Below, in pieces: positions 40,485-62,212 of a DNA stretch of 64,000 bases. The DNA comes from Methanofervidicoccus abyssi (GTDB lineage: Archaea > AGJL01 > Methanococci > Methanococcales > Methanococcaceae). Made by a program: the position numbers and the translations under genes. The stretch is from assembly GCF_004310395.1 (NCBI RefSeq), contig NZ_BFAX01000001.1:1-64000 (forward strand), in the 5' to 3' direction. Within the stretch, counting starts at the first letter, position 1. The number at the start of each line of letters is the position of its first letter. The notes below the pieces were generated by a model. The model ran no database searches. It saw nothing but the letters and a program-made list of their open reading frames with translations, and was not told the origin of the DNA.

Positions 40485-41729
40485 ATGTACTATCTGATAT
40501 TCACATCCTATGGTGCTTTTCTCCTAGAATATAACGGTGATCTAAATTTAGAGAACATAAAACACTATAAAATATTTCCAGAAGAAGAGATTCCCAAAAT
40601 CATGTATAACCTCCGAAGAGGAAACCTTCAAATAGTTGAGGAGTTAATGAAAGAATGGGATCTAAAGGATAAAGGTATAAAAGTCTTAGTAGAATACTTA
40701 GAAAATGAGCCCACACTTCCAGGAAAGTTTATAAGAGAGAATATATATCCCCTAGGTAAGAAATACAGCATTTTCAACAGTTACAAGGAGTTTATAGAAA
40801 AAACAAACCTATGGGCTACTCAACTCACAAAACTTTTAATGAAGGAATCCTCTGAGAGAAAGGATAAATTGATAATCCAGACTGTAAGTGCCTTAGATGA
40901 CTTAGATGAGACACTTAATTTATTCTCCGAGAGACTTAGGGAGTGGTATTCTCTCTACTTCCCAGAGATGGACAAGATTGTAAAGAAACATGAACTTTAT
41001 GCAAAATTGGTATCCCAATTTTTAAAGAGGGAAAACTACACCAGGACTAAGTTAAAGGAGTTTCTACCTTCAAAAACAGCCAAAACACTATCTAAAGTAG
41101 CAAAGAGTTCAATGGGTGCAGAGTTATCCGAGGAGGATCTCTCAATTATAAAGGGATTTGCAGATCAAATAATATCTATGTATAACCTAAGAGATAGCCT
41201 ACTGAAGTATTTGGGAGAATTAATGGAGGAGACTGCACCTAACTTAACAAAGTTGGCAGGGGTTTCCTTGGGTGCCAGACTTATAAGTTTAACTGGGGGA
41301 TTGGAGAGGTTGTCAAAACTCCCCGCCTCTACAATACAAGTTATCGGAGCTGAAAAGGCACTATTTGCACATCTGAGATTAGGAGCAGATCCTCCAAAAC
41401 ATGGGGTAATATTCCAACACCCTCTTATTCAAAGCTCTCCCTGGTGGATTAGGGGGAAGATAGCAAGGGCTCTAGCCTGTAAGTTGGCTGTGGGAGTTAG
41501 AGCAGATGTTTTTGGAAACTACATAGCAGATGAACTTCTTGAGAATCTTAATAAGAAGGTTGAGGAGATAAAGAGGAAGTACCCAGAACCTAGGAAAAAA
41601 CCTTCAAAGAAGAAGAAGGAGAAAAAAGAAAAAGGTATGAAAAGGAAAGGAGATAAGAAGAAAAAGAAAAAGATAAAAAACCGAAAAAAGGGAAAGAAAG
41701 TAATAGGTAAGACATCCTCAAAATGGTGA
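40485..41729 (+). CDS. nop5: C/D box sRNP core protein Nop5 (aNop56/58)
   Basis: A scaffold that joins L7Ae, the C/D guide RNA and fibrillarin. At 414 aa: N-terminal fibrillarin-binding domain (1-~120), coiled coil (about 130-240) and the Nop domain with VIGAEKALFAHLRLGADPPKHGVIFQHPLI binding the L7Ae-RNA kink-turn. The C-terminus is a Lys-rich tail of about 45 residues (KKKKEKKEKGMKRKG...), as in several Methanococcales. Fibrillarin follows after 4 bp. A likely guide RNA client is the C/D sRNA at 62114-62174. Confidence 0.95.
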   Translation: MYYLIFTSYGAFLLEYNGDLNLENIKHYKIFPEEEIPKIMYNLRRGNLQIVEELMKEWDLKDKGIKVLVEYLENEPTLPGKFIRENIYPLGKKYSIFNSYKEFIEKTNLWATQLTKLLMKESSERKDKLIIQTVSALDDLDETLNLFSERLREWYSLYFPEMDKIVKKHELYAKLVSQFLKRENYTRTKLKEFLPSKTAKTLSKVAKSSMGAELSEEDLSIIKGFADQIISMYNLRDSLLKYLGELMEETAPNLTKLAGVSLGARLISLTGGLERLSKLPASTIQVIGAEKALFAHLRLGADPPKHGVIFQHPLIQSSPWWIRGKIARALACKLAVGVRADVFGNYIADELLENLNKKVEEIKRKYPEPRKKPSKKKKEKKEKGMKRKGDKKKKKKIKNRKKGKKVIGKTSSKW

Positions 41730-41733
41730 TACT

Positions 41734-42414
41734 TTGAAAGTTAGGGAGATCTTCGATAACGTATATGAGATAGATACAGGTGATGGGGTCAGGAAAATAG
41801 GGACAAAATCCTTAATCCCTTCCAAGAGAGTTTATGGAGAGAAGATAGTTAAGATAGAAGGGGCGGAATATAGAATCTGGAACCCTAGCAAGAGTAAGTT
41901 GGCAGCTGCCATATTGAAGGGGCTTAAGGTTATGCCCATAAAGAGAGGTTCAAAGGTGCTCTACTTAGGTGCTTCGGCAGGTACCACACCTTCACATGTT
42001 GCAGATATTGTGGAATACACACCTGTATACTCTGTGGAGTTCTCGCCGAGAATAATGAGGGAGTTCTTAGAAGTATGTAGGGATAGAACAAACCTTATAC
42101 CTATACTGGGGGATGCTAACTTACCGAACACCTACAGTAATATAGTTGAGATGGTGGATGTGATATACGAAGACGTCGCTCAGGTAAATCAGGCTGAGAT
42201 ACTTATTAAAAATGCCAGATGGTTCTTAAAGGAGGGAGGATACGGTATAATAGCTATAAAGGCAAGAAGTATAGATGTTGTAAAGGACCCCAAGGAGATA
42301 TTTAAGGAGCAGAAGGAGATACTGATAGAGGGAGGTTTTAAGATAGTGGATGAGGTGGATATTGAGCCCTTTGAGAAGGATCATGTATTGATGGTGGGCA
42401 TCTGGCAACCCTAA
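41734..42414 (+). CDS. flpA: Fibrillarin, rRNA/tRNA 2'-O-methyltransferase
   Basis: The SAM-dependent methyltransferase of C/D box sRNPs, 226 aa, without the eukaryotic GAR domain. SAM motif I is VLYLGASAGTTPSHVADIV; others are VYSVEFSPRIMREFLEVC and VDVIYEDVAQVNQAEIL, and the catalytic Lys lies in GIIAIKARSIDV. The start is TTG 41734, closely coupled to nop5. Downstream the PHP gene begins 9 bp after its stop, forming a three-gene unit. Confidence 0.96.
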   Translation: MKVREIFDNVYEIDTGDGVRKIGTKSLIPSKRVYGEKIVKIEGAEYRIWNPSKSKLAAAILKGLKVMPIKRGSKVLYLGASAGTTPSHVADIVEYTPVYSVEFSPRIMREFLEVCRDRTNLIPILGDANLPNTYSNIVEMVDVIYEDVAQVNQAEILIKNARWFLKEGGYGIIAIKARSIDVVKDPKEIFKEQKEILIEGGFKIVDEVDIEPFEKDHVLMVGIWQP

Positions 42415-49195: not shown

Positions 49196-49900
49196 ATGAG
49201 AAGAGTAATAGAGTACTACAACACCTTGGCCAAGGAGTACGACAACATATACAAGGATATAAAATACATGAGATCTGTGGAATTTAAAGTTCTGAAAAGT
49301 GAGATAAAGAAAGACTACTTAATCTTAGATGTGGGGTGTGGGACTGGAGAACATTTAATGTATCTGAGAGATTATAACATAATAGGATTGGATATATCCA
49401 TAGAGATGTTAAAAAGGGCCAAGGATAAAAGTGGAAAATTTGTAGTTGTAGGCGATATACAACATCTACCATTTAAAAGTAGATCCTTCAACTGTGTAAT
49501 TTCCTTCTTTGGAGCCTTGAATCATGTACAGATAAACAGAGCACTTAAGGAGATAAGAAGAATTCTCGTTAAAGAAGGTTTATTTATATTTACTCTGGCC
49601 AACCTCTATCATATGAGATGGATATTTAAATCCCTGTTAAGAAAGGGATGGTGGTACACTGTAAAAGCTATAAAAAAGAGGAAGGGAGATATTACAAAGG
49701 TTGTGGATGGGAAGAAGATAAGAGTTAATACCAGATTTTACTCGTTGGAGGAGGTGGAGGACCTCCTGGAAAAACATAACTTCCATATAAAGTATACATT
49801 TGGTACTTACATTACCAATTCTCCCTTAGATAACATACTATACAAAACCTTTTTAAAGCACTTTGGTGGTTATATAGGTGCTGTAGCTGTTAAAAAGTAA
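49196..49900 (+). CDS. Class I SAM-dependent methyltransferase
   Basis: A 234-aa soluble Rossmann-fold methyltransferase. Motif I is LILDVGCGTGEHLMYL, motif II IIGLDISIEMLKRA, motif III FVVVGDIQHLPFKSRSFNCVISFFGALNHV, then EIRRILVKEGLFIFTLAN. This is the methyltransferase-11/UbiE-like group; the substrate is not predictable. ATG 49196 follows GGAT; TTG 49187 is in frame just upstream. leuB starts 13 bp later, so they are co-transcribed, though a link to leucine synthesis is not evident. Confidence 0.85.
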   Translation: MRRVIEYYNTLAKEYDNIYKDIKYMRSVEFKVLKSEIKKDYLILDVGCGTGEHLMYLRDYNIIGLDISIEMLKRAKDKSGKFVVVGDIQHLPFKSRSFNCVISFFGALNHVQINRALKEIRRILVKEGLFIFTLANLYHMRWIFKSLLRKGWWYTVKAIKKRKGDITKVVDGKKIRVNTRFYSLEEVEDLLEKHNFHIKYTFGTYITNSPLDNILYKTFLKHFGGYIGAVAVKK

Positions 49901-61613: not shown

Positions 61614-61846
61614 GAGAGAGTGAGAATTTTAGGAATAATATAAAAAAATTTCCTTAAAATTTTAATAATGGAAAAATTAAAAAAAATTAAAATAATTTAT
61701 TGGTAATTATTATAATTATTATTAACAAAAATAAAATCAACAATGAAAAAATAAACTCTCTGATAATCTCCTTGAATTATTCCGGGTACTGAATAAAAGA
61801 AGTAATGTTGTTAACACAATATACCATGTCTCAATGGGGGATATCG

Positions 61847-62113
61847 ATGAACGAGTATGTCATGTATTTTACCATGTTCTCCCTGATGATTGGAGCACTT
61901 TCATCGCTGAAACTCTGTTTCCATAGGAATACATCCAACGTACTCATTGGAGAAGGTTTAATGGCTATAATAATAGCTACCTTTTTAGTAGTACTCTCCC
62001 AGGCATTTAATATACCTTTTGCGGATACTGTAGCACTCTTTATAATCGTGGCTGGACCTGTTGGAACGCTAGCATTTTCTATGGTTATGAGAAAAGGAGA
62101 TAAAAATAAATAA
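61847..62113 (+). CDS. MrpF/MnhF-like membrane subunit (EhbB-type candidate)
   Basis: An 88-aa membrane protein with three helices. The pattern NTSNVLIGEGLMAIIIATFL and FADTVALFIIVAGPVGTLAF resembles the MnhF/MrpF subunits of antiporters, also present as EhbB in energy-converting hydrogenase b, whose genes are scattered in Methanococcales. ATG 61847 follows GGGGGAT (61836-61842); longer in-frame starts back to 61805 lack a site. No other Mrp or Ehb gene is in the window, so the complex is unknown. It runs into the convergent sRNA gene. Confidence 0.5.
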   Translation: MNEYVMYFTMFSLMIGALSSLKLCFHRNTSNVLIGEGLMAIIIATFLVVLSQAFNIPFADTVALFIIVAGPVGTLAFSMVMRKGDKNK

Positions 62114-62174
62114 CGGTGTCAGTCCGCCCATCAATCATCACAGGTCAGAAGCTACCACCGATCATCATCCACCA
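62114..62174 (-). ncRNA. C/D box small guide RNA
   Basis: A textbook archaeal C/D sRNA of about 60 nt. In RNA order: stem GGUG (62170-62173), C box AUGAUGA (62162-62168), 13-nt guide, D' box CUGA (62145-62148), 3-nt spacer, C' box GUGAUGA (62135-62141), 12-nt guide, D box CUGA (62119-62122), and CACC (62115-62118) closing the stem. Guides are UCGGUGGUAGCUU and UUGAUGGGCGGA. The second can pair, with one G-U, to the conserved 16S helix-44 sequence CCGCCCGUCA, which would place the methyl on the C equal to E. coli C1402; that target is inference. It is the substrate class of Nop5/fibrillarin, encoded at 40.5-42.4 kb. Confidence 0.9.
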
Positions 62175-62199
62175 TTTAAAATTAGATGCCTTCACATGT

Positions 62200-62207
62200 T
62201 TATATAA
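62200..62207 (-). promoter_or_regulatory. Promoter of the C/D box sRNA
   Basis: On the minus strand GGAAAAT-TATATAA gives a BRE and TATA box centred about 30 bp upstream of the sRNA 5' end, the right distance for its own transcription start. It lies directly behind the MCM stop codon, so the sRNA need not depend on MCM transcription. Confidence 0.6.
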
Positions 62208-62212
62208 TTTTC

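Follow-up and report, generated by a model that had tools for sequence, protein, structure and literature searches.

Archaeal C/D box sRNAs are an already known class of genes and an ordinary kind of ribosome-modifying RNA. In eukaryotes the C/D snoRNAs U43 and snR70 serve the C1402 equivalent of 18S rRNA. The same nucleotide is 2'-O-methylated by the protein RsmI in bacteria (PMC5053481). PMC4644070 and PMC7994747 describe dual guides and guides that have two targets, as well as hot spots in the region of helices 90-93, and no position was common to all of the seven archaea studied in PMC7994747. For M. maripaludis the main text of PMC4644070 gives only seven C/D sRNAs, with no site in the A-loop and one reported at 16S G1494. 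That main text, supplements aside, names neither C2558 (which lies in the stem, not in the loop) nor C1402, and, with the supplementary tables of the same paper set aside, we found no published 2'-O-methylation at archaeal 16S C1402 or 23S C2558.

The locus described here, from Methanofervidicoccus abyssi, belongs to this class. Within the window (the whole stretch of DNA that was analysed, 64,000 nt), a dual-guide C/D box sRNA of 59 nt is read from the minus strand at 62173-62115, downstream of mcm. Its features, and the two protein genes of the same window that concern it, are as follows.

40485-41729, plus strand: Nop5-like protein, C/D sRNP core (PPKHG motif by eye and gene order)
41734-42414, plus strand: fibrillarin, C/D sRNP methyltransferase (Pfam PF01269, 321 bits)
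62115-62173, minus strand: C/D box sRNA, stem to stem, 59 nt (sequence, Rfam RF01139 sR2, orthologues)
62170-62173, minus strand: 5' arm of the terminal stem, GGUG (DNA GGTG), pairing with CACC at 62118-62115
62162-62168, minus strand: C box AUGAUGA (DNA ATGATGA), from sequence, invariant among family orthologues
62149-62161, minus strand: D' guide UCGGUGGUAGCUU (DNA TCGGTGGTAGCTT), 13 nt, candidate target 23S AAGCUACCCCG, statistically weak
62145-62148, minus strand: D' box CUGA (DNA CTGA), from sequence
between D' box and C' box, minus strand: spacer CCU (DNA CCT), from sequence
62135-62141, minus strand: C' box GUGAUGA (DNA GTGATGA), from sequence
62123-62134, minus strand: D guide UUGAUGGGCGGA (DNA TTGATGGGCGGA), 12 nt, predicted to target 23S C2645 and possibly 16S C1361
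62119-62122, minus strand: D box CUGA (DNA CTGA), from sequence
62115-62118, minus strand: 3' arm of the terminal stem, CACC, from sequence, covarying with the 5' arm
62200-62212, minus strand: BRE/TATA-like element (GGAAAATTATATAA region), TATA at 62207-62200, from sequence, TATA-like in relatives by eye

Along the minus strand the order is GGUG-G-AUGAUGA-UCGGUGGUAGCUU-CUGA-CCU-GUGAUGA-UUGAUGGGCGGA-CUGA-CACC. The C (RUGAUGA), D' (CUGA), C' (RUGAUGA) and D (CUGA) boxes are present in that order, guides of 13 nt (D') and 12 nt (D) abut the D' and D boxes, and the GGUG/CACC stem closes the C/D kink-turn. The C-D'-C' skeleton occurs once in the 64,000-nt window, against 0.01 expected from shuffling, and four times in the 1.3-Mb genome, against none for a reversed-pattern control. 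A second local similarity, at 49460-49498, was rejected as a chance resemblance in A+T-rich sequence. The GGAAAATTATATAA BRE/TATA-like element directly adjoins the stop codon of mcm (62215-62213), whose product matches Pfam MCM, and the TATA centre lies 30 bp upstream of the stem. The sRNA gene occupies the gap between mcm and a convergent ORF of 102 aa (61805-62113). In the five relatives where the sRNA is likewise flanked by mcm and the 102-aa ORF, a TATA-like stretch is found at about the same place, and many other orthologues have one at a similar distance, as judged by eye. An earlier note on this DNA had proposed that a complete C/D box sRNA gene lies here together with a likely promoter of its own, and the boxes, the guides of 12-13 nt, the stem and the TATA bear it out; the extent that it gave, 62114-62212, proved to be the entire gap between mcm and the ORF including the promoter, the RNA itself being confined to 62173-62115. 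We consider the dual-guide archaeal C/D box sRNA gene at 62173-62115 to be real and confirmed.

The 102-aa ORF encodes a hydrophobic product without a Pfam match, and is kept beside mcm and the sRNA in five relatives. By the same skeleton three further C/D box sRNAs were seen on contigs C2 and C4 of this genome (L216, L217 and L218). The D guide of L218 ends in TATGAGCT, as does the D' guide of the Methanobrevibacter loci; the complement, AGCUCAUA, fits the CAU anticodon loop, possibly at C34 of tRNA-Met.

The Rfam model sR2 (RF01139) matches 62117-62172 at 45.8 bits, against a gathering cut-off of 42; in a single-genome search the same sRNA scores 33.7, below the cut-off. The reading of the earlier note is incomplete insofar as the class is not an unknown one and is detected here by Rfam. 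The match is full-length and above the gathering score, but the guide consensus of the family differs from both guides here at many positions of the alignment. As the sR2 model also contains no base pairs, the match is largely to the boxes and supports the class of the RNA, not its targets. In per-genome searches sR2 matched in 20 of the 22 genomes of the host's family, the Methanococcaceae, mostly below the cut-off, and the matches that were inspected are real orthologues with the same box layout, the same D' guide and an invariant C box. The D guide core is shared by 17 of these 20, and both guides are thus found in 17 family genomes; a relative in the same genus (G010) has the same sRNA variant. 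Methanocaldococcaceae, a second family, also have orthologues with both guides; their closing stem is GGCG/CGCC, both arms being altered in a compensatory manner.

In three family genomes (G005-G007) a tandem duplicate is present, and the orthologue retains the D' guide, its D guide having been replaced. About 80 nt downstream in G005 (L022, 1499-1705), a second C/D RNA shows the reverse, with the D guide retained and a new D' guide; in G006 and G007 the D guide lies at a similar distance from the orthologue, the region itself having been read in G005. The tandem pair looks like the product of a duplication followed by division of labour, and the separation of the two guides onto two sRNAs supports that selection acts on each guide separately.

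The protein partners are encoded as well. Fibrillarin and an L7Ae-family protein, the latter on contig C2, were identified by Pfam, and Nop5 by motif and position only. The Nop5-like ORF lies directly upstream of fibrillarin (40485-42414), in the same window as the guide RNA. A loose motif search found no RsmI-like signature, which is a weak negative. Possessing all boxes, guides of 12-13 nt, a closing stem, a length of about 60 nt, rRNA complementarity at N+5 and encoded protein partners, the sRNA shows no structural difference from archaeal C/D box sRNAs in general; what distinguishes it is the unusually broad conservation of its D guide, when set against the seven archaea of PMC7994747, which have no position in common.

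For the D guide we took the 16S and 23S rRNA of this genome from contig C3 and numbered them against E. coli rrnB. When 20 family guides are averaged, 23S 2641-2652, UUCGCCCAUUAA, comes out first; its N+5 falls on C2645 (E. coli C2558), within the stem of helix 92 beneath the A-loop. The second site is 16S ACCGCCCGUCAC, with N+5 at C1361 (E. coli C1402). The D guide of this genome forms 12 pairs at the 23S site and 10 at the 16S site, with N+5 paired in the correct register at both. The score of 23S C2558 exceeds that of all 1000 column-permuted controls when the three genomes with a replaced D guide are left out, and 10-12 contiguous pairs are formed in all 16 family relatives with this D guide. 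The 10-nt 23S target TCGCCCATTA occurs in the genome only within 23S copies, AAGCTACCCCG occurs once, inside 23S, and the genome contains no exact complement of the D core (TCGCCCATCA). Other sites were rejected: none of 36 tRNA candidates, a set that includes one implausible 2.4-kb intron call, beats the rRNA sites, and good pairing at 23S 1655 (E. coli C1536) is confined to this genome, the site having a low rank across the relatives. The 23S target region is present a second time at a contig end (G000:C4:356798), where a second rRNA operon was probably broken by the assembly.

The earlier note had suggested that the D guide may act on 16S C1402. Such pairing is legal in this genome, with 10 pairs, N+5 and the best duplex energy (-20.2 kcal/mol for 16S vs -17.5 kcal/mol for 23S), and only 2 of 400 shuffles gave a 16S duplex as good; however, 23S C2558 is better kept in relatives, where the two energies are about equal. 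The advantage of 16S in this genome comes down to one base, guide position -2, where A has changed to G; the other 31 Methanococcales guides found all have A there. An A at this position can pair with 23S U2555 but not with 16S C1399 (E. coli numbering), and all 16 family relatives keeping the D guide form only 8-9 pairs with 16S, the mismatches lying towards the D box. On these pairings 23S C2558 is the better supported primary site of the D guide.

In Methanobacteria and Archaeoglobi the D guide core UGAUGGGCGA (10 nt) hardly varies at all, and Methanococcales come close to this. The Methanobacteria group retains it in 139 of 152 genomes, and it was found in 48 of 394 genomes in a sample of the Archaeoglobus phylum, using a pattern that left -10 free as R and -8 free as Y with the bases in between fixed, other variants being invisible to it. 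In these 139 and 48 genomes every match carries G(-10) and U(-8); of the 187, all except two have A at position -2, none has C at -8, and none (0/187) has the A at -10 that would improve pairing with 23S. Positions -1 and -12 vary. All 32 Methanococcales D guides found end in GA, AA or AG, each of which pairs with 23S UU. Loci of Methanobrevibacter, Archaeoglobus, Thermoplasmata, Altiarchaeota, Methanofastidiosum, Hydrothermarchaea and DPANN archaea are among the matches listed. The core occurs in either guide position among archaeal groups; in the Archaeoglobus-type loci that were read, a second C-like box comes after the guide, which thus occupies the D' position. In Altiarchaeota (L030, L046 and L118) the sRNA with the same D guide has the D' guide CGAACAACC or GAACAACC, complementary to GGUUGUUCG, which is present in the 23S of one such genome (L232); the nucleotide addressed by this D' guide would be the U2552 equivalent, at a distance of six nucleotides from the D site.

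Against 23S the core UGAUGGGCGA is Watson-Crick paired except for a wobble at -10; against 16S it departs from Watson-Crick pairing only at -8 (a wobble) and at -2 (an A-C mismatch). These positions bear on which rRNA the D guide serves. That it serves 16S C1402 only, the 23S match being a by-product, would agree with the duplex energies of this genome and with the modification of the same nucleotide by RsmI in bacteria and by a C/D snoRNA in eukaryotes. The resemblance to U43 and snR70 extends to the class of the RNA and to the small-subunit nucleotide that would be reached, but complete pairing with 16S would require a C at a position where the archaeal guide has U. Both A at -2 and U at -8 fit 23S and not 16S, 187 genomes of two other groups offer no C at -8 and, save in two, A at -2, and mismatches flank the 16S duplex in every family relative with this D guide; we consider an exclusive 16S role improbable.

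If instead the D guide serves 23S C2558 only, the 16S match would be a coincidence. This would fit its rank as the top site over the family guides, in none of which a mismatch lies beside the D box. It is harder to reconcile with the invariable G(-10), which forms a wobble with the 23S U and a Watson-Crick pair with the 16S C, and with the complete lack, in 187 genomes, of the A that would suit 23S better. We give this explanation a little less than an even chance.

No single target explains G(-10), U(-8) and A(-2), and the three together could be accounted for by two targets, an interpretation that should be read with some caution because the search pattern fixed the bases between -10, -8 and -2 and other variants went unseen. 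A D guide serving both 16S C1402 and 23S C2558 would also be consistent with the N+5 register at each site, and guides with two targets have been predicted earlier (PMC4644070). On the other hand, the conservation could be inertia, and the 16S pairing ends in an A-C mismatch in most species. Service of both sites is in our view a serious possibility that falls just short of an even balance. Somewhat more tentatively, we propose that one guide, little changed among several deep groups of archaea, may methylate a nucleotide of the decoding centre, 16S C1402, as well as one below the A-loop, 23S C2558, and that its sequence may have been frozen as a compromise between them.

For the D' guide the earlier note could name no target; a candidate exists if one bulged U is allowed. 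By energy the best site in this genome is 23S AAGCUACCCCGGG (-18.0 kcal/mol), with 8 contiguous pairs beside the D' box and then 4 more, that is 12 with one bulge, and N+5 at U2525 (E. coli U2438). Relatives with a 12-nt D' guide form 7 + 3 or 4 pairs around one A-C mismatch. The target AAGCUACCCCG occurs once in the genome, in 23S. These results should be weighed against the controls: 100 of 400 shuffles were as good, which is not significant, and in an ungapped permutation test the 12-nt form was not significant and the 13-nt form is uninformative given the bulge. The best tRNA matches stood slightly above rRNA in the ungapped scan, and were rejected as rich in G-U pairs or lying within a doubtful intron. 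We regard 23S U2438 as a candidate target only.

In conclusion, we hold with good confidence that the locus encodes a dual-guide sRNA with its own promoter, the D guide of which would be directed to 23S C2558, with 16S C1402 also reachable, and the D' guide to 23S U2438. The conserved gene, the complementarity and register of its guides, and the genes for fibrillarin and the L7Ae-family protein are observed directly. We infer that the sRNA would be transcribed from its promoter just downstream of mcm, fold into two kink-turn motifs, and form a ribose methyltransferase together with L7Ae, Nop5 and fibrillarin. Pairing of the D guide with 23S UUCGCCCAUUAA would place fibrillarin on C2645 (E. coli C2558), in the helix 92 stem below the A-loop; the same guide could pair with 16S CCGCCCGUCA, a pairing that is strong in this genome, and so reach C1361 (E. 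coli C1402). The D' guide would most likely address 23S U2525 (E. coli U2438), 120 nt from C2645 and in the same domain.

The gene is ordinary, and the core of its D guide is unusually conserved, across Methanococcales, Methanobacteria, Archaeoglobi, Thermoplasmata and DPANN archaea. This guide fits a functional site in each of the two ribosomal subunits. If both subunits are indeed served, archaea would reach C1402, the nucleotide modified by RsmI in bacteria, by means of an RNA that also marks the large subunit.
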